Source: Dicyema japonicum (lineage: Eukaryota > Dicyemida > Rhombozoa > Dicyemidae). From it: a stretch of 64,000 bases of DNA. This document shows, piece by piece, positions 3 through 59,161 of this stretch; positions within the stretch are counted from its first letter, which is position 1; each line of letters opens with the position of its first letter. The stretch is from NCBI GenBank assembly GCA_011109175.1, contig RDEW01000015.1, positions 1,026,882 to 1,090,881 on the forward strand, given 5' to 3'. A program made the translations under genes and the position numbers. A model generated the notes under the pieces. That model was not told the DNA's origin. It worked only from the letters and a program-made list of their open reading frames with translations, and made no database searches.

Positions 3-515
3 GGCAAGGAATTTGTAAATGAAAAAATGTTCGAGTTATGCTCAACATATGGTATAAAACACGTCAGGGGGTGTCCTAGGTGTACATGGGTGCAGGGACA
101 AGTAGAGCGTCTGAATCAGACATTGAAATTTATCATTTCTTCAAAAAATTTGAATTCCAAGTGGATAGACATAATTGAAGAAATTACAAGTTCCTATAAT
201 TCTGTCCAGCATTCAACAACTTTGCACGCTCCTTTTAAACTGATGTTCGGAGCTTCTGCCAATGAAACCATAAATAATCAATACTCAGAAGAGGAAATGA
301 ATGAAATATTCAAGCAAATTGATTCATGGAATGAAGAAACACAAACTGAAGCAACTGAATATCTTGCATGGTTTTGGTCATCAAATGAAACTTCGAGAAC
401 AAAAGCAATTTTAAATTCAAACAATGCTGAAAGAAAAATGTTAACAAAAAAATGTGGAAGAATGATATTTATATTTTTAACATCGGTGATCGAGCTGTTA
501 GAAGGGTCATTTTGA
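3..515 (+). pseudogene. Integrase-core fragment (KRBA2-like / Ty3-type)
   Basis: The open frame entering from the left edge reads GKEFVNEKMFELCSTYGIKH and continues with RGCPRCTWVQGQVERLNQTL. This is the C-terminal half of a retroviral-type DDE integrase core, with the last acidic residue in GQVERLNQ. The wording is close to KRAB-A-domain protein 2-like integrases, which are domesticated or free-living Ty3-type elements. The catalytic domain starts outside the window, and the frame ends soon after the core with no recognisable C-terminal domain. I read it as a fragment of an LTR or Ginger-like element. Which class is uncertain; the integrase identity is clear. Confidence 0.75.
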
Positions 516-984
516 TAATAATAAAAAACACGAAAAATGGCTTAAACGAAACACATTGATCCATTCATATATGTTAAAGGAGTATCTGCCACAGAATGAT
601 TGATCTAGAGGAAGATGCAATTTGACAAGACACAGCAGTAATACACAATTTAAATTGAAATGGCAAAAATCACCAATGTTACTAAGAGAAAAAGTATCCA
701 TTAAGTCAGGGGTGTCGAACTCATTTCCCTTTGAGGGCCACATTGACAAGCTGATAGTCGGCTCGATATACTGGTTGTAGAGATGCTCCAATGCCGAGTT
801 GTAAGATCTTCTGTAATGTCCAAAAAGGACCTTCACGAAGTTTCTTTGGGAAGAAGATATCATATTATTTAATGCGTCCCGAAAATCATCAGGAAAAGTC
901 ATTTAGTAACGTTTTTCTGCTATTTGAAAGCGACGTCCTAGCTGCGTTGCGCGTCGTTGGCAGCGACGCTTGAAGTGATTGAAC
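516..984. repeat. Possible hAT (Charlie-like) terminal sequence in non-genic DNA
   Basis: At 707 the sequence CAGGGGTGTCGAACTCATTT, followed by GAGGGCCACATTG, closely resembles the terminal inverted repeat of hAT-Charlie type elements. No matching opposite end was found nearby, so the element is incomplete or its other end has diverged. The rest of this stretch has no recognisable gene. Confidence 0.35.
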
Positions 985-7195: not shown

Positions 7196-9644
7196 TCAAC
7201 AAATGTTAAATAATGAAGATTCAAGATTATTCATAATTTTTATTGTATCTTTTAAATATAGCCCATCCATCTCATTATTTCCATTATACAAAGCCTCATT
7301 GTCTTCTATTCCATTTATTTCAAGTTCTGTTAAATCTGAAATATGTTCATCAATTAATTCGGATTCTTTTTTTGAATTTGTTTCATGGACAAATGTTCTT
7401 TGCTCATTTATCTTTTTCCAACAATTCAATATTGTAGTTTTTGTTACACGAGTCCATGCTTCTCCCACAAATGCGACTACTTGTCTCATATTGATCTTCA
7501 ACAGGGCATCATAGTATTCATTAGCATCGTCAAGACATATCATTTCATAAAGAACATTCTTATAACATGATTTGAATGAGTTTATGATCCCCATATCTAA
7601 AGGTTGAAGAAGTGCTGTTGTGTTTTTAGGAAGTTTAAGAAGTGATAAGTTTGAATATTCCTGACATTTGTGACAACGTGCATTATCCATAATAATCAAA
7701 ATTTTCCTGTTTTTTTGAACCATTTCGAAGTTTATTTTTTGTATGTATCAAAAATATCCATCGTCATCCATGCATTTTTTGAAGCTGTATTATTATTATT
7801 ATAAGCAACTACATAGAATCATATAAACTATAATTCTATTCGTGCCGCGTCTGAACAATCCTCTTAATTAGCCTTTCCCATCTCCTCCTGTCCGATGCCA
7901 AGTGCCGCAGACTACTAAGGTCTTCACCGTCCTTTAGTTGTCTGGTTACTGATCTCAGGTCACCATTAAGGACTTCCGGAAGAGTTATTCTTGGACGACC
8001 TCTGAACTTCTCCCCTGACGTATCGAAGTATTCTTCCATGACGACGTTTGCTGGCGTGTCTTGTTCCAATCTGAGAATATGGCCAAACAATCTCCAGCGA
8101 GCCTTCATGATCATGGTGCTCAGAGGTCCGGAACCGCATCTTCTATATAAATTTTCACTCCCTACACGCATTGGCCACTTTAGTCCCAAGAGAGACCGAA
8201 GTTGCCTTCTGTGAAAGGAGTCAAGGTTTTGTTCGTCCGTTTTCGAAATTCCCCACGTCCCAGAGTTGTATGTTAGTATGGGCCTCACGAACGCCAACCT
8301 GAGTCGGAGTGATGGCCCGACCGAGCATTTTCTTATCCAACATTTCATAAGTTTTTGCATAGTAACCGTAGATAACAATTTTCTTCTTGCAATGTCTTCG
8401 GAGTCTCCGAGAAGAGAGCCAAGCTTTACGGTCTTCCTCCAACCTTCACTATTGCGTAGTTCCATCCGCTTAATTTCAACAATATCCGTTTTCTGAACAT
8501 TCAGTGATAGACACCATTTGGCCAAACAGCCTGATGCAACCTCCAAGAGACGTAAGAGTGCTTCTTTGTCAGTCGAGATAAAGTCAACATCATCGGCATA
8601 CACGATCTCCATAATATCATTGTTGTAATACTTCCGGAGGTCTTGCAGAGCCGATTCAAGGTATATAGCAAACAATACTGGGGAAAGGGAATCTCCTTGG
8701 GGTGTGCCCACTGTTGAAATAATTTCCCGTGACAAACATTTTCCAATACGCACTCGTAACCTCGTGTTTGATAAGAGTATCCGTATCAGAATAACCGAGT
8801 CTTTATCCAGGAAACTTTCAAGCACTTCAATGAGTTTTCCCCGACGGACAGTGTCGAAAGCTCTGGTCAGATCAATTCCAAGGATAGTCTTTGAGCTCCG
8901 AAGCTGTATATAGAACCTAAAATTAACCCAACACAATATACCCCATAATCTTCTGTATTTATGTTTTTAAGCATCTTGGGGATTTGAATTTCCCGATAAC
9001 AAGGGTTTTAATTTCTCGCCTTCACGGCTGCAGCATAAAAGAACTGAAACTCGGTCTTTACTTTTCGTTTTACCAAAACAATCATCATTTGAAAGAGACA
9101 AATGATCTACATGAATTTTTTTTAATAAAAAGAGAAGTTTCGTCGCAGTTAAAAATATCTTTTTTATCGTATTCCTCAAATAAACTGTCGTAATTGTTAA
9201 AAAACTCTTTAAGTTTTTTTTGTCGGATGAGTTTTTTTCACCCGAAATTACTTTGAATAGTAATTCATGTCGCTTTTTAAATCGATCAAGCCATCCATTT
9301 GATGCCTTGAAATCATTAAACTCAAATTTGGCAGCAATCTTTTTTGCAATATTTTTGAGGAGACATCCAGATACTGAAATCCCATCCTTTCTCAAATTGT
9401 TGAAGACTTCGAATACTAGTCGATCAATTTGAATAGAAAGGTCGGATTCAAACTTCTTGCATGATACTTCCTCAAAAAAATACTTCTTTGTTTAACGAAA
9501 TATTTTCCTTTCCAATTTCTTTTTAATTCAAGAAACAGTTCCTTTTCCAATCTTGTATAATCGACAAATTTTTTTTTCTGACATATTTTTATTTATTAAA
9601 GAAAATCTGTTGTTTCAAATTACGACTAAGCTTCGCAGGCATGC
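7196..9644 (-). pseudogene. Tigger transposase, interrupted
   Basis: The N-terminal part (about 9,640-8,942) contains a CENP-B-type helix-turn-helix: a divergent N-terminus, then VSGCLLKNIAKKIAAKF and NGWLDRFKKRHELLFK. A frameshifted LVIGKFKSPRCLK follows. A 25-nt GT-AG segment (8,917-8,941) removes cleanly and joins NINTEDYG to VLYTASKNAWMT across the RTE insertion, giving the usual Tigger YKANKxAWMT block. The DDE half (7,780-7,196) shows ILIIMDNARCHK, with the second catalytic Asp, and TTALLQPLDMGIINSFK. Its C-terminus has YNGNNEMDGLYLKDT and ends at a stop at 7,196. At least two frameshifts plus the insertion make it a pseudogene. The short intron would be like the host's own. Confidence 0.85.
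7791..8899 (-). mobile_element. 5'-truncated RTE-like LINE inserted in Tigger (family B)
   Basis: A 1,109-bp insert is flanked by a 10-bp duplication, GAAGCTGTAT (7,781-7,790 and 8,900-8,909). It carries an open RT frame on the minus strand. Motif A is TILGIDLTRAFDTVRRGKL, then GTPQGDSLSPVLFAIYLE, the catalytic EIVYADDVDFIS, and the thumb RPILTYNSGTW. The typical C-terminus follows: RWRLFGHILRLEQDTPANVV and GRPRITLPEVL. The 3' end is a TTATAATAATAATA tail at the left edge. The reading frame is continuous from 8,899 to 7,836, which is unusual here and suggests a fairly recent insertion. Endonuclease and RT N-terminus are missing. Confidence 0.9.
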
Positions 9645-23156: not shown

Positions 23157-24214
23157 ATGCATGATGGAGGTGAGAATAAATTTTACGATTCCGTTGAGAT
23201 TGATCTACATCAGATAACAAACTCAAAGGTTATGTAATTTAAATATAATTAGAATGAGGGATCTACGTACTTATCAGTGATGAATGTTTTAAAATCTTTA
23301 CGAAAAAGCAAGATCAACGAAAGTTCATTTATTGAATCAATAAAAATCTTCGTCTTATTAATAAAAGAAGAATTCGAAATTTGAAAATAGTAAATTTCGA
23401 TAGAAAAAAAAGAGTTAAATATTTTTTAATAAATATTAAAAATTATTCCTGGCCTATTGTGTTCCTTATTATTTTGATGTCATATTTACTGTCGTGGTTT
23501 ATATTTGGAATTATTTGGTATGGGGGGGTGGAACTTTCACATTCAAACATCTGCGTGGCAAATGTTGAATCGTTTCTTGGAGCTATGATATTTTCTATCG
23601 AAACCCAGAGTTCAATTGGGTTCGGATATATGTATATTACTGGTAATTGCACATGGACTGTATTTGTTTTAATATTACAAGCTTTTTTTGACGCAATTGT
23701 TGGAACTTTTACTGTAGGATTTTTACTTGTTAAATTTTTCGCTCCAATTTATAGAGAAAAAACCTGGTTTTTTTCGAAAAATGCTGTTATTTGTAAACGA
23801 AATGGAATTGATTGTTTTATTTGTCGTGTAATTAATATTCAAAAATCACAAGTAATTAATACAAAAATTCGTCTCTATATGGTTTTAACCAGGATTACTA
23901 TGGAAGGAGAAATAATTCCATTTTATTTGAGAAAAATGAAGGTTGAAGATTCATCTAGTGGTTGTTTAAGAACCGTGGTCCATAAAATTACCCCAAATAG
24001 CCCATTGTGGAAATATAATGAACAAAAGTTTAATAATAGAGGAGTAGAAATCCATGTGTATATTTCTGGATCGAGCGAATCATCTGGATTAATTGTGTAT
24101 TCCAAAGAAAGTTATAAAACAAATGAAGTTGCGTGGAAATGCAAATTTAAGGAAATCATTGAAAACAATTCATGGAAAATTAATCTCAATGATTTTAACA
24201 CAATTATTGACTAA
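23157..24214 (+). CDS. Inward-rectifier potassium channel (Kir), one apparent frameshift
   Basis: The product is a two-transmembrane K+ channel subunit of the plasma membrane that sets resting potential. Exon 1 (23,157-23,228) and a 24-nt intron lead into a long exon. M1 is about YSWPIVFLIILMSYLLSWFI. The pore helix and filter read ETQSSIGFGYMYITG, where most Kir channels have T-T-I-G-Y-G. M2 is about TVFVLILQAFFDAIVGTFTV. The cytoplasmic domain begins FAPIYREKTWFFSKNAVICK and ends WKINLNDFNTIID-stop, matching the Kir fold in order. In the N-terminal cytoplasmic part (about 23,341-23,347) an A-run is one base short. One more base would join ESFIESIK-type sequence to LRLINKRRIRNLKIVNFDRK, the usual segment before the slide helix. 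About 344 residues if corrected. Probably a base-calling error; a null allele is possible. Confidence 0.88.
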
Positions 24215-28022: not shown

Positions 28023-28553
28023 ATGAAATTTCCTGGATTTATACGGACTGCTTTATGCTACTTATCAGATAATCATGAAAATAGAAAAATAATTATTCGA
28101 TATAGTAAATCAGGTGGTCATGGAGGACAAAAAATTAACAAAAGTAAAAGACTATAAAAACATTAAGGAAATTCGAAAGTCGAATTAAAATTTCACGTTG
28201 ATTCTGCTAACTGGATAGAATGTGAAATTAAAAAAATTTTATACAATAGAGTGAATAAGATTATGTATAAATAGTTTAAGTCAAAAATTAATGATAACGG
28301 ATTTTTTATAATCTCCTCAGAAAATTTTAGATCTCAACACTTAAACGAAAAAGATTGCTATGAAAAAATACAAAATATTATTGATACTTGCAGGAATATT
28401 TTAGAGGAACAAAATAAACTTATAGATTATGAAGAATTACTCAAACAACAGGAAAAGTAATCATTAATGAATTGTTTTAGAACAAAAATGGCTTCAAAGA
28501 TTAGAGTCGACAGAAAGAGAATTGATTCTTACTATAGAAAACGTAATTTATAA
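28023..28553 (+). CDS. MRPL58: Mitochondrial ICT1-type peptidyl-tRNA hydrolase (mL62)
   Basis: The product rescues stalled mitochondrial ribosomes and is a component of the large subunit. Four exons (28,023-28,143; 28,168-28,250; 28,275-28,456; 28,481-28,553) are separated by three introns of exactly 24 nt. Spliced length is 459 nt, or 152 residues, with no internal stop. The protein has a short N-terminus, then KIIIRYSKSGGHGGQKINKR with the catalytic GGQ, followed by NSKVELKFHVDSANWIE, KINDNGFFIISSENFRSQ, and a basic tail SKIRVDRKRIDSYYRKRNL. The tail resembles the ribosome-entry tail of ICT1. The order SGGxGGQxxNK...SKVE...FH...W fits ICT1 rather than a full-length release factor, which would be over 350 residues. 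Confidence 0.93.
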
Positions 28554-28810
28554 TAAATTTCTTAATTTTTTTTAAATACAAAACCCCTCATAAATTAAGA
28601 CAACCAAGAAGGTATCAAAGACAACGAATTAAGTGATCTCAGATTTTAATAACTCGTGTTCCGGGGTCGATCCTACCGCTTTCTGGAAGTGTCTTTTTAA
28701 CGTCAACGGATTACCTTGTTTTTCATCTATAGTATAACGGAGTCAGAACCCGGATAATAGAAAGTGTACTTCCTTGATGTTTTGCCGTCATTGGCATTTA
28801 TTTTGATATT
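28554..28810. other. Intergenic stretch, nothing recognised
   Basis: About 250 bases after ICT1 without an open frame of interest. A GGGTTCTGACTCC-like segment on the minus strand (near 28,745) is not enough to call a SINE or tRNA. Confidence 0.4.
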
Positions 28811-29245
28811 TAATATGAAGTTTTAAGACAGGTTAATCCAAACTTTTAACTGACCGACAGTTTTCTTTGACATTTTTAAGCATTCGACAACCAATAAATA
28901 AATAAAAGCCTTAGGTCGTTTATGTGTGACTGAAGTTCTCATTTTGCCATATACACATATCTGTTTCTGTTTGCAATAATTAAATCGTAAGAGTTTTGTC
29001 ACTAGGCGCGATATCACACAGGTATGGAAATCGACCGGTAAGATGAAAGTGAGGCTTTCGATTTCCTGGTTTTTAGGCGTGTATGATGTGAGTTCTTCCA
29101 TTTGTAGGAATATCGTTGCGTTTGAGACATTAAAAATTGAAGTAATCGATGTGATTGCAATCCCTCCAAGATGCTTTAGCAGAATTCCGAGAATACCATC
29201 TGGACCACATGTATATGACTACTTCATGGATCTATTAGAGTTACC
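28810..29245 (-). pseudogene. Jockey-like LINE RT fragment (family C)
   Basis: The minus strand starts TCGPDGILGILLKHLGGIAI and continues with an IFNVSNATIFLQMEE stretch. This is the start of a Jockey-type RT palm, equivalent to RPDGIPVILLKKMG at 5,400. The frame degrades into MEELTSYTPKNQEIESL and ends. Small, 5'- and 3'-truncated. Confidence 0.6.
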
Positions 29246-29333
29246 TTGACTTATTTGCCCCAATGTATATAATAGCTCTCTGGATGCTATAAATTATAAA
29301 ACAATTTTTAATTTTAAAAGAATGAAAAAGATA

Positions 29334-32300
29334 TTAGACATATGACGTATTTGAGGAGTCATACTAAAATATTATTATAGGTAACCTTCCTCTTCACACC
29401 CTTATCAATAATTCTTTGTCGATACACTAACAGTTGAAATTTCTCTGAATCCAACTCCAGTGCATTTTTGGCAGCATTAATTTGTGATTGTCGAATAGTA
29501 CAACCAATACCAACAGCTAGTTTACGTCCCATAAATGAAACATTAGTTACAAATTTATCTTTAGAATTTTCTGAATGTGGTTCCAGTCTATATATAAATA
29601 TAACTAATTACTCATATATAGGAAAAGGACTAAGATCAGCGGAGTTATTCATAATCGACTGCATTTGACAGCATTGCTTTAACAATGCCTTTGGATCACT
29701 CCAGTCTTGATTATATATAAAAGTCTAAAATGTATTAATCAAAATACATTCAGTTTACTAAAAAGACGAGTCTTGCATAAATTTAATATTGATGTAAATC
29801 CTCCTGAATCCAAATAAATTGAGGCGACAAAAGCTAATATAAATTTTAAAATTACCTTCAAATAAATCTGCCTTATATTTAATCAACTTGATAGAGTTTA
29901 AATCATGAGCATTCTTCGAACTATCAGAAGTAAATCGATTAGTGAACAGACCCAATTCATCACAAATAACGCTTTGCACATTTGAGGATACTAAAAGGCT
30001 CTTAAGAATCTAAAAAATCAATTTAAATAAAACAACCGAAAGTAGACCTTCTCTAAATGTGGGAAATCTGTTATATAAATATTCAACAATTATGAATTTG
30101 AGTAAAGAATCACCCAAAAACTCCAACCTTTGATTATATAAACTCAAATTATTAATAATTTTTACAAATAAATATTATTATTTTTTGTTCCTTTGTGAAG
30201 GGCTAATGCTAAAAGTTCTTTGCGTTTAAAAAAAATTCCAGTAGAACATTGTAATTTTTCTAATTTCTAATTTTAGTAATAAAATAAACTAAAGAATGAT
30301 CTTCTAATAATAATTTTCTAGAAAAAGAAGAATTTCTTTCCTAAAACATTAGGTTAATTCACAACTAATAGAGAAAGGGATGGGGGATTACGCCAATACT
30401 CAGTAATTCTATCATCCTCATTATCATAAAATAGAATTTTTCCAATAAAGTCTCTAATAGTTTGGAGTGAAGAGCTATCAACATAGATAGCCCCTATCAA
30501 TGCTTCAACAGTGTCGGCCAACATATTTTCACATCCGTCATTATAGACTACATCAGGATTTGCCAAAATGTATTTATGGAAACCGAATCCCTAAATAAAT
30601 AAACAATTAACTTTAGAAATCTTAAATAAATTTCTATTTCCAACTAAGGCAGAACGATATGAACTCAACAAATTCTCGTCGTGGAAAGGAAAAGCGTTGA
30701 ATAAATCAATACTAAAAAGAATAATTATATCTTACCTAACAATAATCTCCAGAATAGCATCACCAAGGAATTCTAGTCTTTCATTAGTGATTCCTAATGA
30801 ATCGTTAAAGTAATCCACTTTCGGTACATGATTACAATTAGAAATAGTTTTCATAAGTCCAAAAAGACCTAATATTTTCATATAAATATTTACCTTTCTG
30901 ATGGCTACGCTTATTCATTACTTTAAGTGTTTTTCCACTGAATCTATTTCCAGTGTTTGATAAAGAATTCTTTAACTGATCAGAATTAATCGCATATCTC
31001 ATAGAATCCTGAATAGGAAGTAAAGCTTGCTAACATGAATATATAAATTACCATTAATAGAGCTCGGTTATTAAATTTATAATCCAAAATAGATTCTAGT
31101 CCACTCAGTGAAATAAAATGGTAAATATGACGGATAAATTGAGACAAAAGCAAAGCGCAGTGTGCGACATCATTGTACAGCCCAGTAGTATAAAAACCAG
31201 TCGTTTCCAAACAAATGGTGGTTGATTTTCGTTTAGATCTGGTAATTATAAAAACTTACTGTTTAATATCAATTAATTTATTAATCAGTTCTAAGTTTTC
31301 CTGAGAATCCTCACTATTTTTTTCAGTCTTGAGTTGAGATCGAATTCTAACATGATTCAGTTTTTTACAGGTGTGTTTATATCTATAATATTCAAATAAT
31401 AAGCAAACCTTTTATCAGCAAAATATGACAAAGTCTTGGGACGTATTGAGAAATGTATGATAGCAATGGTTTGATCAATATAAGGATGAGATTCTATCCT
31501 ATCAATTCTTATTGCCGCAGGCTTCTATTAAAATTATACTATGAATCACTTTAGAAGGATTTGTAACAAGTGCTCCTTTCAAATGTTTATTAAAATCTTC
31601 TAAATTTTCATAATTAGGTTTAAAAACATCATCGAGCAATTTAAATGAATGAATCAAGTATCTAATAATTTCTCTGATTGAAAGTACATCCTCTCCATCT
31701 TAATCATTAAACACAAAATACCGTTTGATTTACACACAAAACGTGGAAAAATATGAAGTCGTGAAGGTATGGCCATATTATAAAAGTCAAATAATTCAAG
31801 AATATCATAATAAAGATATCGACTAAAAAGATCTAAAGTATTTATATATTCTTTCTAAAATATAAAATTATGAACAACATCAAAGTCATGAACCCTCTCA
31901 TCCGAAATGCTCAAAGAATAAAACATATTACTCAATTTTAGGGTAATTTGAGGTAACTAATAATGAATGCAATATTTACATCATTAATAGGAAAGTGGGT
32001 CAAAATATCGAATCCATCAAATTTATAAATTTTACCTCCATTTTCTATTTCGGTTATATTGGATGACTTATAATGATAACAATTACGTATACCTCAGGTA
32101 ATAAGGCTTTAAAAAATAAAGAGTAATAGTAAGTCTTAATATTTTCAGAACATTCTTTACATACATCGCCGAAAAGTTGATAACTTGAATTTTCACAAAA
32201 GTATTCTTTGATGTTTCCAAAGTTATCCTTAATAATGCAAATTAATACTTTAGCATGTTCATTATGAAAAATTTCATCAGAAAGGTTGTTAGGATCTGCT

Positions 32301-32457
32301 AAATGTTGCTGCAAATAGGCTAAAAATAACATAATATATAGTAACCTTTTTTGTCGGTATTAATCTCTGATGGATTATAAGGTGTTCTCTCATCTCGTAG
32401 TCCATTCAGAATATCTAGCACACAACGATCAAAATAGCGTGCAGCACTACCAATCAT
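29334..32457 (-). CDS. DROSHA: Drosha, nuclear RNase III of the Microprocessor
   Basis: The product cuts primary microRNA hairpins in the nucleus with its partner DGCR8/Pasha. Twenty introns of 21-27 nt, all GT-AG, leave 2,652 nt, a frame of 883 residues with no internal stop. The order matches Drosha's catalytic half. A central domain comes first ([66 protein letters not shown]). The first RNase III domain follows, with Drosha-specific [20 protein letters not shown] and catalytic [13 protein letters not shown] and [15 protein letters not shown]. The second has [15 protein letters not shown] and [16 protein letters not shown]. The dsRNA-binding domain comes last ([16 protein letters not shown]...[14 protein letters not shown]). 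There is no PAZ domain or helicase, which excludes Dicer. The P-rich and RS-rich N-terminal third of human Drosha (1,374 residues) is absent. A further upstream exon is possible, but retrotransposon sequence begins at 32,589. Confidence 0.95.
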
Positions 32458-32588
32458 TTTATGTTTAAATGTTTGATTTGAGTAACAAAACGCCACGGCT
32501 TTAAATTTAAATTAATAATATTTTTTTCATATCTTAGCTTTAAAATATTATTTTTTTATTTTGCTTCATTTAAAAATAATGATTAAAA

Positions 32589-33230
32589 ATGGCCGCGGAA
32601 AGAATACAAATTGACCTGGACCGACTCAACGTTTGGATAATAGAGAACCGGCTCATGGTGAATGTAGAAAGGTCGATCGCGTCCCTTTATATCTCGGACA
32701 AAAGATTTGAAAGGAAGACAGTCACCTTGAAGTTAATCAAGGTCGACACCCCTTTCAACAAATGTCAAAGGATCTTTGATGTGACACTTGATATGCATCT
32801 TTATCTATAACTCGACGTAGAATACATTTTTGTGAAATGTGAAAGAAATTAAAGTTTATCTGGAATATGGAAGATTGGTGCTCTCCAGGTCCTGATGAAC
32901 GTGTACAGACATTACATCGAGCCATGTTTCTCATGTGCATACGCCTCGTGAGGACCGTATCTTGAACAAATATGAGGAAAATCGAGGAAATGCAAAAAAG
33001 GGCTTTCAAAGTAACAGAGCTTTGGATCTGTGTAGAACTCCGAATTGGACCGACGCTTCTAAAGTTAACTAGACTCTAGAATGCTGCCTCGTAGATTTAG
33101 TCAGTCGTCCTGTACAATCATCGCGGGCACGAGGGAGAAACACCGGGCAAAAATGAGGTCACTTATGGAAAGAATTGGGATCATGTGATAGTTAGATTGG
33201 TTTTACATGGTCTTGAAATTTTAAATAAAT
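32589..33230 (+). pseudogene. Jockey-like LINE 3' end (family C)
   Basis: It starts with AAERIQIDLDRLNVWIIENR and LMVNVERSIASLYISDKR, the segment after the RT catalytic site. Thumb remnants follow, and it ends EKHRAKMRSLMERIGIM-stop near 33,189, the family's terminal signature. It lies about 130 bp upstream of the first Drosha ATG, in opposite orientation. Confidence 0.75.
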
Positions 33231-34287
33231 AAGTGCTACAGTGCTTTGGCTTGACGAGCGACGTTGTCATCACTGAATATTTCAATACGGAAGCGGATCT
33301 CTATTACAATAAATGAGGAGTTGACGTACAAGTCCAGATCACCCAGAAAATGGCTGGAGCAGATCTGTGCCAAGATTACTTGGAGACAAACAGAGTTGGA
33401 AGGACTGGAAAGGCATATAAGTAGTGTGACGAGAGGGGTTAAAGGAAAAGCACCGCCCATAGTAAGATTGTTACTTAGTAAAGCGGTGTTCCCAAATGGA
33501 GCCTCATAGAGTTGAGGAGGGCAAAGGCGGAGTTAGAGGAGTATAGAAGGAAACTCTATACCCATGAAAGTCAGTGTAAAAAAGAAAAAATAATCAGTTC
33601 AAATTTAATCGCTAATTATTTTACCGTCGCCTAGGACTCCAAATTAATTTTAGAAAATTAAATTCAAATTCATTTTAAATATATTTAAATACAAAACCTT
33701 TTCTTAATGTTTCGACGTTGTCTCGTTCAGTATTGTTTTCTACTACAGTATTAAATCTGGAATCCCACGATATCTTTGGAACTATGACAACTTATTTGAT
33801 CACAAAGTTGTAGAAACCTAAGTCTGCTTCAAATTATTGACCAAAAAACCTGCATCCCAACCCTGTATATGCTGATGACTTAATTGGTTTCTAATGAGGT
33901 CAGCAGTTTTGTGAGGCCAATGAAATTTTCTCCGAGAATGACGATTGTAAGGTAGCAAAATGACAAGTTTTGATCAACAAGCCCCTTTCTGTGTATCATG
34001 GAAACTCACTTTTTTCATGTAGGTGGATGTGATGAAGGCTTATGATTCAGTTGATCATTCTTACTTTGTCGAGTGACTATGCATTATGTATATGCCTGTG
34101 TGGGTTCATCAGCTTTATAGTACCATCGTCTGGGGTTGATATTGTCCCCGGGAGGAGAGAGCCTAAAGGTCCTTTTTCGATGGGTATTAGGCTCCTCTTG
34201 GGGTTCCAAATCCTTTTTAATGGGTTGACCACATAACGTCACGCTAATTTTGAATTGTCAGGCACTTATGACACACAAATATAATTT

Positions 34288-34330
34288 TAATTTATTAACC
34301 CCGGATACACCGAGAAAGAAGTTAAAGTAA
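34288..34330 (-). repeat. 3' end of SINE2, truncated
   Basis: TTAACCCCGGATACACCGAG and AAAGAAGTTAAAGTAA match the 3' end of the SINE2 copies at 35,690-35,965 and 43,775-44,010. Only about 40 bases are present. Confidence 0.6.
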
Positions 34331-34339
34331 CGCTTATGA

Positions 34340-34970
34340 CACACAAGAAACCCTCATCGATACACACCTACGAACTGGACTAACATTCTGTACAAAAATA
34401 CTCATTTGTCCCTTATGGAAGCGGAAGACCTGCACCGTAGAGCTTGCATACTGGCAGCCTCTTCCCCCACAGCGGTGCTTGGCTGAACGCGTTCCCATAA
34501 TCGTCAATTGGTTATTTTCTTGATCAGGACGCCCTCCTGGATAGTTTTTCTATCCATCTAGGGATCGACCTGTGCCAGCCTCATCCATGCCGTTGTGGAT
34601 CTGCTGTAAACTGCAAAGGTCTTCTTGAGGCGGCTGGATTCCCGTCGTCTCTGGAACCGATCGTGGAGATGGAAAACGCCCAACTGTCTTTTCTTCTCTC
34701 GAGGGAAATGCTTGATTTGGGATTGAACTTGTACTGACACCTTTTCCCAGTCAAGACTTGCTGGTTCCGCGTTGAAAGCTGGGAAGGATGCTCAGACTTT
34801 CGAGAATTTCAAGATAAAGAAATACGACAGCCTCTCTACAAGATTCCATGTTTAACCCATTGTTGTCGAGACAAATGGAGTCTTCAGACTCAAGACGGTC
34901 TCTTTTGATGGATTGCTTGTGTCAATGATTTCGAAAAAAAGCAACGAGTGTCGGGAAACCGAATGGGAAT
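34340..34970 (+). pseudogene. RLE-type LINE 3' fragment (family A) inside family E
   Basis: In changing frames it gives DLHRRACILAASS, LEAAGFPSSLEPIVEMENA, WDTCTDTFSQSRLAGSALK, FENFKIKKYDSLSTRFHV and VETNGVFRLKTVSFD. These are the C-terminal block and tail of family A and parallel 45,345-45,830 closely. Family E sequence on both sides shows it is an insertion or rearrangement. Confidence 0.65.
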
Positions 34971-35689
34971 GGTTGGGAAACCTAAGTATAGTGTTTATGA
35001 TGGTGGGCTAGTAAATGTGAAGGCGTTGATTAATTAGTTAAGCCACTCGTCGATTGCTCATTTAGCCACTCGGTGCGGATCCATGTTCTGCCACGACTAT
35101 GTGTGGAAACATGACGAGGTAGCAAGGAGTCTTCATCTTTACTATGCAATAAGTATGGTATTCGCCACATCAGAAAGTTGCGGACTCATAAAGAGCAATC
35201 TGTAGTAGAGAACGATTAAGTCCAAACCAATGTAGACAGTGCTATTCAAACATCCGTGCTAATAAGCACAATAGGCTGGACATCTTGGTAAACGATATGG
35301 AGTCTGGCCTAGTCTTTATCATAGAAGTTGGCATTATGTCTCAAGACCGTTTGCAGAATGTGGAGGTGGTTAAAAAAGGAAGTATGACTTGCTTGCAAAC
35401 GAGATGGGGCAGATTCTTAGTTGCAAAGTCCTCGTTATTCCAACGTGGAAAAATTGCAACAAAGTACCACGAGGGTTATCTAAAGCAGTTAGAGGTAGAT
35501 TGAAAGATCCAGGCCTATCTACATTCCACTGTATTAAAGCGGACTCTAGAGAGGCTGACACTGGATTATAAGACACAGAACCAAAAAATGCCACATGGGA
35601 AGAAAGTTCAATTGGACAAGGCGCTCTCAGAGTTATTTCAACAACCGGAAACGAACTTGCCTGATGAGGCTAGCGAACAAGAAGGTTGT

Positions 35690-35965
35690 TAGTTATTTAT
35701 TAACCCCGGATACACCAAGAAAGAAGTTAAAGTAAACAACTAATTAAGTGTATCCAGTTTCCACTTCTACAGAAACAGAGTCCATCCGGAATCAACATAC
35801 AGGGTAAAAGACGTACATACTTGCAGTTGTAGAAACCCCTCCAGTGGAGTGGGGGAAGCAAATGATCTTTTTTTGTGCCGGGCTGGCTCTGGGCGCCACC
35901 TAGACAAACGGATAACATGACGCCACTTTAATAGGAAGAGGGAGAAGGAACAGACGAACAAACAG
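35690..35965 (-). repeat. Dispersed short repeat SINE2, longer copy
   Basis: Read on the minus strand it starts TTTGTTCGTCTGTTCCTTC and GTGGCGTCATGTTATCC. It passes GTCTAGGTGGCGCCCAG and a CCCCCACTCCACTGGAGGGG segment, and ends GGTGTATCCGGGGTTAATAA. It matches 43,775-44,010 on the plus strand, which lacks about 55 internal bases. No coding capacity. A tRNA or 5S origin is not proven. Confidence 0.7.
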
Positions 35966-36149
35966 AATCTTCAACCAATTAGCCACGAAGCACCACATGG
36001 CGCCACTCGGCTATTACCAAAAGTCTATAAGAAGGTTGTTGATTATTAAATATTAACTTGTTATTGTTGGTTAAATAAATTGGGATTTGTTTTTTAAACT
36101 CTAAATATTGAAATTATTATTTTAAGTTAAATTAAATAAATAAAATTAT

Positions 36150-36475
36150 ATGAGCGACGTGAGCAAGGAAAAATTAGAATGTAGAAAATATTATATTGGT
36201 AAAATATGTGAAGTTATCTAATTAGCTGGATTTTTCTTTCTTCCTATTTTTTGGGCATTAAATATATTTCTGTTTTACAAAAAATCCCGTCAAGATTCTG
36301 AATTTTATTCTTGTATCATTGATTTTGTTTTTTAGACGTTAAAAAATCAGCTTTAATGCTCGTAATATCATTATTATCTCTTATTTCTTGGATTATTGTA
36401 TTTCAAACATGCAGACTTAATTGGGGATTTACTGGTGATAGATTATTGTTCTCATATTTTTCGGGTTCACTCTAA
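36150..36475 (+). CDS. PSENEN: Presenilin enhancer 2 (gamma-secretase subunit PEN-2)
   Basis: The product is a small membrane subunit that activates presenilin in gamma-secretase, needed for Notch cleavage. Three exons (36,150-36,198; 36,226-36,312; 36,336-36,475) are joined over introns of 27 and 23 nt. They give 276 nt, or 91 residues, against about 101 in human. The start MSDVSKEKLECRKYYIAGFF corresponds to the CRKYYLGGF region. Hydrophobic FFLPIFWALNIFLFYKKS and LMLVISLLSLISWIIVFQTC follow, then RLNWGFTGDRLLFSYFSG before the stop. Human RPRWGALGDYLSFTIP fits the end. Splicing restores the frame exactly. Confidence 0.93.
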
Positions 36476-36768
36476 TAGTGCTAATTTTTCGGTTGATTTA
36501 TAACAATTTAATTTTTTGATTTTAAAAAATAAGTATTCAAATGGGTTATTGAATAAAATATTCATTGCCAATCATTCTGGAAATGAACAATTAGTTTTGA
36601 TTGATCTCTCAATTTCATCTGGTAGTTTTAAGCACAAAAAAGAATTGAGAGTACTTTTATAATATTTTTAATAATATTTGACAAATTATTCAAAATATTT
36701 TGTCATTGTGGTCTATATACTGGCATAAATTGATTTGCCTTATTTTTGATTATAATATTTTATTGATG
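36476..36768 (+). other. Intergenic, with one exon-like segment
   Basis: At about 36,538-36,660 a frame reads NGLLNKIFIANHSGNEQLVL and IDLSISSGSFKHKKELRVLL-stop. It looks like protein sequence but matches nothing I know, and no joining exon is evident. The rest is AT-rich. Confidence 0.35.
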
Positions 36769-36769
36769 T

Positions 36770-38995
36770 GTGCTCTTTAGTAAAGGTGGTTACGTGCCTC
36801 TCTTGCACAAGATGTCTTCTCCATGCAATCAATCTTCCTGCTCTCTATTGGATCATTAAATGTGAGAGGATTCAACCATACGTAAAAAGACAACTCTTAT
36901 CTGCGGACCTCAAAGATACGGAATATATGTATGCTGTCTCCTGGAGACTAAAGTCCCCAATGGCCTAGATGAAACAATGAACGGGTATCGACAGCTTCTA
37001 TTGCAGTCAGACTGCCGATATTATGGGATGGGGTTCGCTATGCGCGTGGACGCAGTTGTGGTGGCTCATAGAGCATGGAGTATCAACGACAGGATTGCTA
37101 TCCTCCAACTACGCTTCGGAAACAACCGTAAAACTACTCTATCGATTATTAATTTACATGCACCGACCACAGTGAGGGCATCCCAACGCAGAAGAACTTG
37201 AAAATTTCTAGTCGTCCTTATCATCGGCTTACTCCTCGCTGTCCAGCTCCTACATGCTCTTTATAGTGGGAGACTGGAATTCCAAAGTGGGAAAAAAGCG
37301 GGACGAATCAAATTGCTTGGGCAGCAACGATCGAGATCAGAAATCTGTCCAGGGAGGCCCTTATACACTTCTGCGAGTCATTTGGAGTATTCCTTTGTAA
37401 CACGGCGTTCCGACATGCAGCGCGACATATTATGTCACATGGGCGGCGCGTAACGCATGGGCAGCCTGTTACACTTTTTCGACCTTGAAAAGGTCCTTTG
37501 ATTATCCGACATTTAATTTTGTATATCCGATTTATATCGTGATTTAATCCTGTTAAATTAGTTTTTTATTCATAAATGTTATGATTATAAAGACGACGTG
37601 GACAGGGCAGAGGAGAGACTCCTGTGGAAATCGAGTCCATATATTTAGCCAAATCGACTACATACTATGCAGACAAACACAGAGGTGGCTACTCACCGAC
37701 TCCCGTATGTACAGTGGCATGATGACCTCGAGTGATTATAGACTACTAGTGGCACGTCTCATTCTAAAGCTACGCTTTGGAATCTCATGAGCACTGGCAG
37801 TTCGTACGCGGAGCAGGATTTTGGCCGTGAAGGCTCTATGTGCTTACGACAATACTTGTAAAAAGTTCGGCGAGAAAATATCGAAACTGCTGGAAAATAT
37901 CGACACGAATATGTCACCCGGCTGATACGTAAAAATATTTCTATGAGTCAGGCAGGCTGCTGGGATTGTACTGGGAAATCGCCCAAAAAAGTTCAAAGGA
38001 ACTTTTGACAAGGAAATAGAACTATCAAAAAACCAAAGGAAACTCCGACTCTTAATCGAGTCGTCTAACTCGATAAGGGTGGCTAAGTTAATCTGCACAG
38101 TCCTGAACAGGACTTTCAAATGTCACAGTCCATTTGATGCGGGGAATGGAACCTTGTTCCCAATTCAGAAACCTGGAAAGGAAAGAGGAAATCTAAACAC
38201 TCTACCCCCGATTACACTAATGAATACGATAAAGAAAATACTCTCCCTTGTTGTGCTGGATCGTATTTCAGGCCATGTAAATGAGTTCCTGAACCCAAGT
38301 CAAGGTGGATTCAGACCTGGAAGGTCGACGGCAGACGTTGTATGGAGCTACAGTTGGAGGTGTGCAAGGCGTAATCTACGCAGATGATATTGATTTCGTC
38401 TGCCGGGATAGGGATACGCGTAAACTATACTAAAAGTGATCCCTCAAGGGTTGGAGGACTGGTCCCTGGTAGCAAACCCAGACAAAACGGAAAGAACTAG
38501 CATATCCCGTTGCAAAACGAGAAACTAGTTAAAGTGGAGAACATGCATGAAAGTTGGATCTCTCCTCGAGAACTCGGAGGACGTTATTCATAGGAAAGTT
38601 CTGACGGTTGCTTTTTTCAAAAAATTGTAGGCGATCTGGATGCGGCGAAAGTACATAGGCACTCGCCTTCGAATTCGGTTGTACAACTCCTTTATCGAAC
38701 CAATTCTACTTTATAACAAGAGGGTTTGGGGCCTAACGACCAAAGAACTGGAGAACCTCAACTCTTTTCACAGAAAACAACTACGACTTCTCCTGGGTAT
38801 CTACTGGTCAAAACAGATGACCAACGACGAGCTCTACAGAATCGATCAAACATCACAGATTGGTAATAAAGTGACTTCGGCGAAATGGCAGCTCTTTTGA
38901 CATATCCTAAGAGCTTCGGAAATGGCACCAGCCAGTCAGGCCATGGAATCTTACTTCTCTAAATTAAACAAAATAACGTATCGAGGTCGACAAAG
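36770..38995 (+). pseudogene. RTE-like LINE, long copy with endonuclease (family B)
   Basis: The 5' end GGTGGTTACGTGCCTC is shared with the copy at 40,935. An APE-type endonuclease begins SIGSLNVRGFNHT. It continues with broken frames (SYMLFIVGDWNSKVGKKRDE, SQIDYILCRQTQRWLLTDSR, TSSDYRLLVARLIL), followed by RT start sequence (38,080-38,390): FLNPSQGGFRPGRSTADVV. The catalytic VIYADDIDFVC comes near 38,375. The thumb has PILLYNKRVWGLTTKELENL and NSFHRKQLRLLLGIYW. The RT palm between GRSTAD and the YADD is deleted, since about 30 bp separate them. Confidence 0.8.
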
Positions 38996-39151
38996 AACAA
39001 CATAACACGCTAAAAGTAATCGTATAGATTTAAAAAAAATTAATAGCGGTAACATGCTAAGGATAAAAAATTAATTTTAGTTACATGTATTATTTGTTTA
39101 TCATATAAAATAAATTCAAATAATTATATTAACAACGTGGTTCAATTTGGG

Positions 39152-40122
39152 ATGAATTCCTTAGTAAATTAATCTATCTCACTATTAGTTCACATTAGAA
39201 AAACAAATTTTAAGTAAATTTCAGGGAATTTTGACAAATATTTCAAAAAGAACAATCTCTTCAATATGTTTATTTATTTTTTTAATTTTAGCGCAACCCA
39301 ACACAGTTAGACCACCAGAAGAGATATGGGTTGAGAACATGGATTCTGTAGAACGTAAATTTATTAGAATTGAAAAAATAAATTCAGACATTTTTTCTAC
39401 ATATCCACGGTTTATGGATAAATTTATTATAGTATTGATATTCTTCACAATAATATTGTTTGGCAGACAAAATATAAGAAAATCGTAACATTTCTACTAA
39501 ATTAAAAGGATTACCGGTTTGTCGAATCACGTGCAGAAAAGCGTGGTGGGGGACGAAAACCATGGCCTCAAAAAAAAGTTGGTAGAGCAGCTCAAGGAAG
39601 TATAAGATCTCCTCATTGGGTAAATGGAGGTGCTGCTAAAGGGCCTCGTGGTCCCAAAAGTTATTATTATATGCTTCCATTTTACAAACGTGTTCTTGGT
39701 CTTAGAGTAGCTCTCACTGTAAAACATATTCAAGTTTTGTATTTTTATGCCTAGAAATCATTGTTTGTTGTTGAAAATTTAAATTTACCGTCAGATGACC
39801 CCAATGTACAATATTTTTAATATTAATAGTATATTAAAGAATTAGTAGAGGCACGTGAATGGGGTCATTCTGCTCTTTTTATTAGCGAGTAATGTTTTTA
39901 TTAAGGATAGAACTGACTTAGTCGACCCATCAATATCAACATCCTTGGAAGGAATAGATCATTTTAATATAATGCCATATTATGGTTGTTTTATAATACT
40001 ATTCAGGATTAAATGTGTATAGTATACTCAAACACGAGGCACTCATTATGACTTTGCCTTCACTTAGATTGATTCAAGATAAACTTATCACTGCAATGAA
40101 ATCATCTAGAAAATTTGGATAA
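39152..40122 (+). CDS. MRPL4: Mitochondrial ribosomal protein uL4m
   Basis: The product is a structural protein of the mitochondrial large subunit. Eight introns of 21-25 nt leave 786 nt, giving 261 residues with no internal stop. The N-terminus [19 protein letters not shown] fits a targeting sequence. [20 protein letters not shown] and [20 protein letters not shown] follow. The signature [40 protein letters not shown] and [19 protein letters not shown] comes next. The C-terminal part has [20 protein letters not shown]. Human MRPL4 matches in order (GLNVHSMLKHQTLVLTLPT). The start was chosen because the first intron then joins in frame to the conserved part. Just downstream, from about 40,150, is a hAT fragment. 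Confidence 0.95.
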
Positions 40123-55985: not shown

Positions 55986-56958
55986 GTTAAATAAAGCTGA
56001 GTTTAAAAATTTAGGAATTTTCAAGCCTTAATAACGCCCCAAAAATTAATTTTTTAATTTATAAAACCCACAATTTTTATTTGAAAACAACAGAAGTTGG
56101 TAACAAATCACACTAAGAGACAGTGAAAGTCGCCTCTGACTATGGTCATTCCGAGGTGATGTGAAAACCATCTCCGTTTGAGCAAAGTTGTGCAACAATC
56201 GCCTTTTCCACTTACGAAACTTATTTGAAAGAACAGTTAATAATTATGAATAAATTATCGTGCATCCACAGTTTTTTGGACGCGAACATCTCATATTGTT
56301 GAGATGTCAAGGTTTTGAAACTTGTGCTTCTGAATGATCCAAGAACATTTGATATAAAAATACTTTTCTCAGTTTATCTTTGTCAGGATCTTTAAGTCTT
56401 GGATCAGTATACAGAGAATGATGAATACCTGGTTGGTAAAAAGAGAACTCACTAATTAGAAATCATTGTTTTATTATTTAGGATTCATTTTTAAAACAAA
56501 AATCTCAATCTGTTTTTAACTAATCGTATTCTTTCCTCCCAAATGTTGAAATTCGTCATACAGGGGTGGATATTATCTAACAATATTAAGTCGAACAATT
56601 ATATGCTATTTTAAGGGTCATTTTTATGATTCTGTAGCCAATAAATATGTATGAATTGGGTAAAATGAAAACCAATGTTCTGAACAGTGTCAGACGCATA
56701 CAGGTTTTGGGTTCAAATCTCGTCTGGCAGAAAAAATTAAGAAACTCTGTGGATCATGTTTATATGTTAGCAAAAACTCCACGTATAGTTAGAAAGACTA
56801 AATACATGGTTCCATTACATATTGCTTATCCCACACTCATTTTTATATTTTTTACTAGTTTATCCATCCAACTGTAGAAAAGGCAGTGAAATTAAGAAGT
56901 GACTACAACTAAACCAAGTAATGTTTGTAATAAAAAAACAAAATTAACAAATAATAAA
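55986..56958. other. Unassigned region between RLE LINE and TOP3A
   Basis: A minus-strand frame near 56,430-56,310 reads GIHHSLYTDPRLKDPDKDKL. It has a splice-acceptor-like AG before it but no assignable partner exons. A plus-strand segment at 56,647-56,877 is open in two frames (one with GFGFKSRLAEKIKKLCGSC) and likewise cannot be assigned. I list them as candidate exons only. Confidence 0.35.
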
Positions 56959-59161
56959 CTATTTAAAATATGACCTAACCGAATTCATTAATTTGTTAAA
57001 CTGTAAATAAAAAATAAAGTATACCCCATTATTAGCCTTTTCATACAATTCCTCATAAATAGCCAGTTGTTCACTCACAACATCTTAGAATAATGCAAAA
57101 TTTTACCATTTTTATTTCGATCACCAGTAGAAATTCTAAAACAAATTATATAAAGGAAAACAATTGAAGTTGTCTTTCTAATCTAGCACGAGTATCAGGT
57201 AAAGACATATCTATACCAATGTCACAATAGCCTAAATTTATAACAAAAATATACCATTAACTAAAGCCATACCTAATTTTCCTGGCAAAAAACGCATTTC
57301 TTTCATTCCAACATATGAACGGCTTTTAATTTTCTCAATATGGTCTGCATGAGTAGCATCCGTGCCTTATTTATATGAAAATTATAACCAATTTCATGCT
57401 TTTCCATTAAAGCAATAAGCTCACTTTCTGTTAAAAGCTGAGGAGGCATAGTTTTACCCTCAACAAAATAAAAATAATATTATTATATACTTTGATATCA
57501 TCGGGGATAAATGTTGTATTCTCCTCAAAATTAGGAAGTTCTTTTCCATACCATTTCTGATAAGGATATACATCCAAAAAGTTTCGTTCAATAATAACTA
57601 ACCCACTTGTTGTAAACTACAATTAAATATTATATTCAAACAAGTTCACCATTGGCTTCCACAATTACTTTTGTTTCGAACCCCTTAGCATCACAAGAAA
57701 GACACGCTAGAAAATGTCGGGTAATTAGTTTGTATAATGTCCTTTGATCGTCTTGCAGAACATCTCCACTTTTGGTCGGATGAATAGGGGGATGTGCTTT
57801 GTCGGTTTTATTTCCATTATTAGGATTTACTCCAGTTTGTAGTAATTTAGAAGCAAAGTCTAATGGTTCGTAAAAAGACAACCTCCCCAATCGGGGTCTC
57901 CGAGTTGATGTTTCACACAAGCATTCAGATCTAGACCTTCAGGAAATTGATTTGTCTCAGTTCGCGGATATGAAATGAATCCCCCGTTGTACAACTTCTC
58001 AGCTATTGTCATCACTTGCTTTGCCGACATTTTCAACTTTGAACAACCAAGTTTTTCTAACGCCTTTAAAGTAAATTGATTTAAAACCACAGTGTCCAAA
58101 GCAAGTGGTCTCTTCTTAGTAACAGACTTTTTTTCAACCGATTTGACCAAGACATCTTTCTAAACTATACCATAAACGAACCTCCGAACAATGTTTTTGA
58201 AGTGCTACAACAACATCCTTATCAAAAATGCGTCCTCTAATAATTTATTTTGTAAAAAATAACCTTTTCCAATGGAAAACAATTTCCATGTCATCTACTT
58301 TTTTAAAAACTATAATATTTATTATAATAACTATTAATTGTCCAAAATGGTTCAGAAATAAAATTTTGAATTTCTTTATATCTTTTGACTACAAACCCAA
58401 GAGTCGGGAATTGACAGGGTCCGTAACTGATCATTTGGCCTTTTAAACATGGAATATTCACGTGTAAATTAATTGTCTGCATCCTTGTGAAAGCTGAACC
58501 AATCCTTAGATCCAATTCACATCTGCAATTCACTGCTTCTACCAAGTTCATATTTATAGTCTTTAAATTTTTAATGGCATTGTTCACAGCACTAAGAATT
58601 AAATGAAACTCAACAGTTCTGTTATTTCGGAAAATCTGGCCCTCTTTACATTGAGATTTGGTTTGACTAAAAATATTATTAAGCAAATTGTAAATTAATG
58701 ATAAATATACCTCTTAGACAGACGTTTACAATTTCATTTCCTATATGTTCACCTTCCCTATCGCAATCCGTCCAAATTATAAGCTGAGAGCAAGTTTGCA
58801 CTTGTTTTTCCAACATTTTCTAAAATAACAACCATTAATTACTTTTAAAATTAAGTTATAATTTGTATAACACACAGAAATTGGAAGATGAAATAAATCA
58901 CGTGGGTTGGTTTTATTCCAATTTTTGTAAGATTCATTAAAATCAAAATGTGTTAAGTGACCACTCACAGAAGTCATCAACATTTGAACATTTTGTCCCA
59001 TGAGATTGTAATGGAATTCATAAATCATATTATATTTTGCTTCCGTCTTTATCTAATGGTAATTAATATGTACAAACTAATTTACTGTTAGATTTTGACA
59101 TGATTTTAGATAAACATTTTGCTGCGTCATTCTTTTCGGCAACATTCAATATTCTCATCAT
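56959..59161 (-). CDS. TOP3A: DNA topoisomerase III-alpha, core enzyme without C-terminal zinc fingers
   Basis: The product is a type IA topoisomerase that, with BLM and RMI proteins, dissolves double Holliday junctions. The start MMRILNVAEKNDAAKCLSKI opens the TOPRIM domain, with acidic motif IIWTDCDREGE. Next come VNCRCELDLRIGSAFTRMQT and ISYGPCQFPTLGFVVKRYKE. The active-site segment GGFISYPRTETNQFPEG carries the catalytic Tyr. DPDWGDFASKLLQTGVNPNN, NGNKTDKAHPPIHPTK and the closing LTESELIALMEKHEIG plus TDATHADHIEKIKSRSYVG follow. Many introns of 22-33 nt were read. The last exon ends FNKLMNSVRSYFK-stop, right after the core. The several C-terminal zinc fingers of human TOP3A (1,001 residues) are therefore missing; length here is about 600. 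Motif order favours TOP3A over TOP3B. Confidence 0.93.

Follow-up and report, generated by a model that had tools for sequence, protein, structure and literature searches.

Introns of about 23 nt in conserved genes of Dicyema japonicum, with candidate U12-type introns of about twice that length

How an intron of about 24 nt can be recognised at all is the question raised by a 64,000 nt stretch of the Dicyema japonicum genome (GenBank assembly GCA_011109175.1, contig RDEW01000015.1, positions 1,026,882 to 1,090,881 of the forward strand; called the window here, with positions counted from its first base). A first-pass annotation of the window had placed such introns in four genes, ICT1, Drosha, PSENEN and MRPL4, and had asked how the branch point is found in so little space. 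The question is a fair one, and with about a dozen free bases between the donor and acceptor signals these introns probe how little a spliceosome needs. Our analysis confirmed the presence of introns of about 23 nt in conserved genes. Judged from sequence, the best-supported reading is that they are spliceosomal introns near 24 nt: their ends are GT-AG, the expected domains appear after splicing, and conserved junctions show zero net insertion or deletion. Profile searches covered the genome of 64.67 Mb in 191 contigs, and gene finding was run on selected sequences.

Within the window, MRPL4 (uL4m; 39152..40122, plus strand) is the gene in which homologues fix the introns. Removal of eight introns leaves a coding sequence (CDS) of 786 nt with no internal stop. 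Introns 1 (39164..39188, 25 nt) and 2 (39268..39291, 24 nt) lie outside the conserved part, and the other six were placed by homologue alignment: intron 3 at 39410..39432 (23 nt), 4 at 39485..39508 (24 nt), 5 at 39734..39754 (21 nt), 6 at 39806..39829 (24 nt), 7 at 39889..39910 (22 nt) and 8 at 39985..40006 (22 nt). Over introns 3–8 the query was gapless against 15 of 15 animal homologues, which were chosen by hand among 120 listed of 770 found. For intron 7 a gene model with realistic costs, described below, had placed 39864-39885 instead. Here the first-pass annotation, with eight introns of 21–25 nt and a CDS of 786 nt, was right over the gene finder.

The same agreement was found elsewhere in the genome. 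In MRPL4, Prp8, a Cav-type calcium channel, SMAP and GGPPS, 19 introns have GT-AG at the exact boundary set by protein alignment, and their excision, at lengths of 21–26 nt, gives gap-free alignments. The sharpest homology case is Prp8, whose PROCN, PRO8NT and RRM_4 domains span 406, 151 and 91 residues on equal numbers of profile positions, with ten introns of 22–26 nt inside these ranges. The spliced PROCN domain scored 747.9 bits; from unspliced DNA it came out in overlapping or broken pieces of 559, 64.9 and 38.6 bits, and the 559-bit piece runs through ten stops. The expected Pfam family was found above its curated cut-off in all ten spliced proteins tested, six of them in a trimmed, merged or non-final version. 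Prp8, a Sec7-PH protein, an inward-rectifier channel and ICT1 were used as modelled. Drosha and a Sel1-repeat protein had been merged or edited manually, trimmed sequences were used for the Sel1 protein as well as for a topoisomerase, a ketoacyl synthase and PEN-2, and uL4 entered the test in a nine-intron version. A gene-model-free estimate came from CCT chaperonins, in which 40 profile-matched pieces formed 31 neighbouring pairs and the implied intron is the genomic gap minus the profile gap. All 17 pairs with a profile gap between −8 and 3, limits fixed after inspection of the table, implied an intron of 22–26 nt.

Gene finding was judged against controls. A loose finder, which could delete any GT..AG segment of 15–60 nt, called as many as 5,865 introns across 152 genes in 264 kb; it had no control run and was abandoned for gross overprediction. 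Because it opens frames nearly everywhere, an open frame alone is weak proof of an intron. Given realistic costs, the finder called 15 genes with 123 introns in 53 sequences (355,904 bases), and zero genes in one first-order Markov set and one reversed set. A blunt model scored just GT with the next three bases and NAG; its length prior put 85% on 15–35 nt and 15% on the remaining lengths from 12 to 200. It called 13 genes containing 98 introns, most often of 23 nt (29 of 98), and in the Markov and reversed controls it gave zero genes at nine thresholds. The trained and blunt models share 73 identical introns, 68 of them of 20–28 nt, and these 68 have a mean of 23.4 nt and a median of 23 nt, a selection that drops longer introns. 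Modelled lengths of 16, 18 and more than 30 nt are model predictions only. The first-pass annotation had given 19–34 nt as the rule with about 24 nt as typical; the typical size stands (median 23 nt, n = 68), and the range is wider than the verified lengths of 21–26 nt.

What signals do these introns carry? Among 104 introns of 21–27 nt, about 90% have A or T at positions +3 and +4, 13% have G at +5, and 68% have T immediately before the AG. The A/T content of the interior averages 0.90 in 56 model introns, compared with 0.63 in 251 exonic GT..AG decoys of 20–28 nt, and in a partly circular test it separates the two with an area under the curve of 0.979; a threshold of 80% A/T retains 50 of the 56 introns and 14 of the 251 decoys. 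The test shows that recognition could draw sufficient information from length and composition.

Genome-wide, our searches for small nuclear RNAs (snRNAs) matched U2 25 times (22 over the cut-off), U1 11 times and U6 10 times. Eight copies of each were read: the branch-binding GTAGTA was present in 8/8 of U2, ACTTACCT in 7/8 of U1, and ACAGAGA in 8/8 of U6. In the copies read, U1, U2 and U6 thus look canonical, and the comparison of U1 and U2 that the first-pass annotation had proposed found their pairing sequences intact. Six of the 25 U2 matches are clustered in about 111 kb of one contig (C115, 851074-962467). Among splicing factors, the SF1-HH domain was partly matched (positions 59–114), and the gene finder gave no sensible SF1 model at this locus (L025). 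On C114, U2AF65-like pieces that are contiguous in the profile are separated by two gaps of 22 and 23 nt.

A branch-point motif search had also been proposed, and neither positional nor motif tests, on 104 introns and on the 64 agreed with the blunt model, found anything firm at a fixed place. Published dicyemid introns likewise show no branch-point signature in the accessible text of PMC2483917. Some motifs are mildly enriched in the introns, so there may be a weak branch signal.

Our searches also pointed to a second splicing system. U12 snRNA had one match of 85.4 bits (cut-off 53) at L046:1501-1629, which carries ATGCCTTAAACTTATGAGTAAGGAAAAT, and U6atac had one match at C34:237761-237858, which at 37 bits narrowly passes its cut-off of 33. 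These two putative genes indicate that a minor (U12) spliceosome is present in this genome. A pattern of U12 donor plus branch motif showed no excess over its reversed version at a spacing of 0–30 (22 and 19 matches, respectively). At a spacing of 25–55 there were 15 matches against 6, and with an AC end 11 (nine distinct starts) against 3, excesses that are both inflated by repeats. Four A/T-rich candidates were taken up, their frames read by eye and their peptides compared with PDB sequences; the gene finder placed a gene across the junction at one of the four loci, with a score of 1.2.

Three of the four candidates fitted as AT-AC introns. They lie in a SMAP gene (C137:646004-646051, 48 nt, donor-branch spacing 25 nt), a GGPPS gene (C148:743067-743118, 52 nt, spacing 29 nt; its end was picked by frame among three AC ends) and a Cav2-like channel gene (C83:990521-990573, 53 nt, spacing 30 nt). 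All three have the donor ATATCCTT and the branch motif CCTTRAY, an agreement that is partly by construction because the introns were found through the pattern, and in each of them 7 nt separate the last A of CCTTAA from the intron end. The neighbouring GT-AG introns in SMAP, GGPPS and Cav are 23, 23 and 24 nt, so that in these three genes the minor intron has about double the length of a major one. With both classes excised, the proteins align gap-free with SMAP1 (2crr, 101 residues), GGPPS (2q80, 97 residues) and Cav2.2 (7mix, 106 residues). The SMAP1 alignment also demands the loss of a 24-nt stretch with a GA, not GT, donor, on the reverse strand of L052 and 267 nt upstream of the U12 intron. 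In the fourth candidate, in a phospholipase C gene (L051 near 300-350, C126:181460), an AC end would break the frame; this could be accounted for if the intron ended in AA or the sequence differed by one base.

The U11/U12 di-snRNP (small nuclear ribonucleoprotein) spans the donor and the branch site at once, while U1 and U2 bind in turn. The size difference between the two classes may arise from this. It is possible, and on balance somewhat doubtful, that this dicyemid kept a minor spliceosome while its introns shrank, with smallest sizes of about 23 nt for the U2 type and about 50 nt for the U12 type in the same genes. Speaking against a general floor for U12-type size, the minor introns of Blastocystis average less than 42 nt (median 39 nt, with those under 30 nt excluded), compared with 48–53 nt here (accessible parts of PMC10639083 and PMC6865273). 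If the two sizes are true floors, the minimal geometry of the spliceosome becomes testable inside one animal.

Taken together, it is very likely that the U2-type introns of this genome have shrunk to about 22–26 nt, and that a minor spliceosome was kept alongside. This explanation starts from the boundaries in conserved genes, the size distribution, the canonical key elements of the snRNAs and the partial SF1 and U2AF65 matches. Ordinary U2-type spliceosomal introns would have been reduced to a narrow size and would probably be removed by intron definition. We infer that U1, U2, U6, SF1 and U2AF65 act on them across the intron, with canonical U1, U2 and U6 meeting GT[A/T][A/T] donors and mostly TAG acceptors. 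Near-constant length and the A/T contrast to exons would replace most of the motif information used elsewhere, and the branch point would have no fixed place. The retained minor spliceosome would serve introns about twice as long, of which the three of 48–53 nt are well supported. Because the key snRNA sequences look unchanged, the economy would have to lie in proteins, in length and composition, or in a tolerance of error.

Several results weigh against this explanation. The remaining 14 of the 31 CCT pairs give widely spread values between −56 and 167 (11, 69, 167, 22, 22, −1, 20, 62, −56, 22, 69, 22, 37 and 26); missing or read-through pieces would be expected to cause such scatter, and it is no proof of short introns. 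All 11 U1 matches fall under the Rfam cut-off, the best by 69.0 against 69.5. Among the U2AF pieces, the third pair points to about 68 nt, and every U2AF_lg match taken singly falls short of the cut-off. The enrichment of motifs in introns is mild (ATTA z 3.1, TAAT z 2.2; 15 tried, uncorrected), and the A/T test is circular in part because the introns sit where the frame needs them. Finally, the finder excised a 21-nt coding stretch of MRPL4 that all 15 homologues retain, so the model introns include false ones.

That false intron and the behaviour of the loose finder are what would favour an artefact, in which much of the pattern would come from picking deletions that restore a frame to decayed or miscalled genes. 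We considered this and rejected it as highly improbable: the controls of the stricter models gave zero genes, homology is gap-free over 19 introns, and the CCT length estimate uses no gene model, so that for conserved genes the artefact is already contradicted. Removal from somatic DNA instead of RNA was also weighed. Ciliate internal eliminated sequences are of similar size and A/T richness. In addition, tens of thousands of 'circular' contigs are described for Dicyema sp. in the accessible text of PMC6543705. However, the ends here are GT..AG and not TA, by construction in the gene models and also at boundaries fixed by gap-free alignments; the genome holds a full-looking set of spliceosomal RNAs (U1, U2, U6, U12 and U6atac); and dicyemid introns of like size are called spliceosomal in PMC2222250, in the part available. 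DNA elimination was rejected on these three grounds and has hardly any probability left.

Recognition without U2AF, in which SPF45/RBM17 with Smu1 and RED would replace it and the branch point would lie about 7–8 nt from the intron end, deserves more weight, and we regard it as unlikely. As far as the accessible parts of the two papers go, short human introns whose pyrimidine tracts are truncated depend on SPF45 and not on U2AF (PMC8363638), and short introns are served by Smu1 and RED (PMC6692369). In our 104 introns, A is most frequent at −7 (0.48) and −8 (0.49). However, that set came from a model which itself scores positions −7 and −8, and in the 64 agreed introns the excess of A falls to z 1.5 and 2.5, respectively. 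Five motifs were tested for a preferred place, and only TAAT, at 12 nt from the end, reached p 0.04 (uncorrected). Moreover, U2AF65 pieces exist in the genome.

The short introns themselves are not new, since dicyemid introns this short were published in 2007, 2008 and 2019, and the remark of the first-pass annotation that dicyemids are known for them is correct (accessible parts of PMC2222250, PMC2483917, PMC6543705 and PMC6736024). These sources describe weak donors, and they give a mean of 26.2 nt for 16 Dicyema introns (PMC2222250), 24.93 nt for 41 introns (PMC2483917), a median of 27 nt (PMC6543705) and, for D. japonicum, a mean of 38.2 nt over all predictions (PMC6736024); our median of 23 nt refers to the 68 agreed introns limited to 20–28 nt. 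The observation is thus real and mostly described already, and the recognition mechanism is what we infer. The part worth following is the occurrence of two intron classes of different size in one reduced animal genome. We found no report of a dicyemid minor spliceosome in print, with supplements and subscription papers outside the search. The accessible text of PMC2483917 reports no U12 introns in Dicyema, and minor introns are likewise not mentioned in the available parts of the published Dicyema accounts, whereas AT-AC introns were found here.

Paramecium, which PMC2222250 cites as well, also has ultra-short, A/T-rich introns of uniform length with a median of about 24 nt. Unlike D. japonicum, with its U12 and U6atac matches and its AT-AC introns, the ciliates considered in PMC12862383 have no U11/U12 and no AT-AC introns, as far as its accessible text goes. 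The U12-type introns here thus offer an internal comparison that is impossible in the short-intron ciliates examined, because those are without a minor spliceosome. The introns of the Bigelowiella natans nucleomorph, of 18–21 nt and with weak signals, are similar (cited in PMC2222250, in the part available); that nucleomorph is the remnant nucleus of an endosymbiont, whereas the introns described here are slightly longer and belong to the nuclear genome of an animal. In their ATATCCTT donor, TTCCTTAA branch motif and AT-AC ends the three U12-type introns resemble the minor introns of animals and Blastocystis, and in human calcium-channel and phospholipase C genes often host minor introns (accessible parts of PMC10639083 and PMC6865273). 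Gene callers or surveys that exclude introns below 30 nt, as one pan-eukaryotic survey does according to its accessible text, would miss most introns of this genome.

Of the other genes named by the first-pass annotation, the ICT1-like gene (28023..28553, plus strand) has a CDS of 459 nt after removal of three introns of exactly 24 nt, as had been claimed, and its spliced protein matches the Pfam RF-1 domain with 52.6 bits (cut-off 35). Intron 1 (28144..28167, GT-AG) directly follows the GGQ stretch within the RF-1 match. Intron 2 lies at 28251..28274, with an acceptor 6 nt downstream favoured in one model, and intron 3 (28457..28480) is GT-AG. A strict finder seeded solely from ICT1 missed Drosha, PSENEN and MRPL4. 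The PSENEN-like gene (36150..36475, plus strand) agrees with the earlier description in model, having introns of 27 nt (36199..36225) and 23 nt (36313..36335) and a CDS of 276 nt, and its PEN-2 domain was found with 67.1 bits.

The Drosha-like gene (29334..32457, minus strand) has 20 introns of 21–26 nt in the realistic-cost model: 32320-32345, 32067-32092, 31957-31979, 31855-31878, 31699-31721, 31525-31549, 31383-31408, 31239-31259, 31030-31051, 30869-30893, 30712-30735, 30591-30611, 30341-30362, 30267-30289, 30143-30165, 30010-30033, 29834-29855, 29725-29747, 29588-29611 and 29364-29385. Twenty introns had indeed been proposed, but with 21–27 nt and a frame of 2,652 nt, which is 3 nt off the 2,655 nt with stop of our model; at least one junction therefore differs between the two. 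Three Drosha gene models disagree at some junctions, and a version merged by eye from two of them contains two RNase III stretches and a double-stranded RNA-binding motif (dsrm).

Elsewhere in the window, a topoisomerase gene (Toprim and Topoisom_bac domains; 56892..59161, minus strand) has 16 modelled introns, 13 of them of 22–27 nt and the others of 16, 32 and 44 nt. The inward-rectifier potassium channel gene (IRK and IRK_C; 23157-24214, plus strand) has introns that depend on the model, of 24, 23 and 45 nt with realistic costs and a single one of 134 nt in the blunt model. Two further open frames, as read by eye, resemble a retroelement integrase (3-603, plus strand) and a DDE transposase (7196-7723, minus strand).

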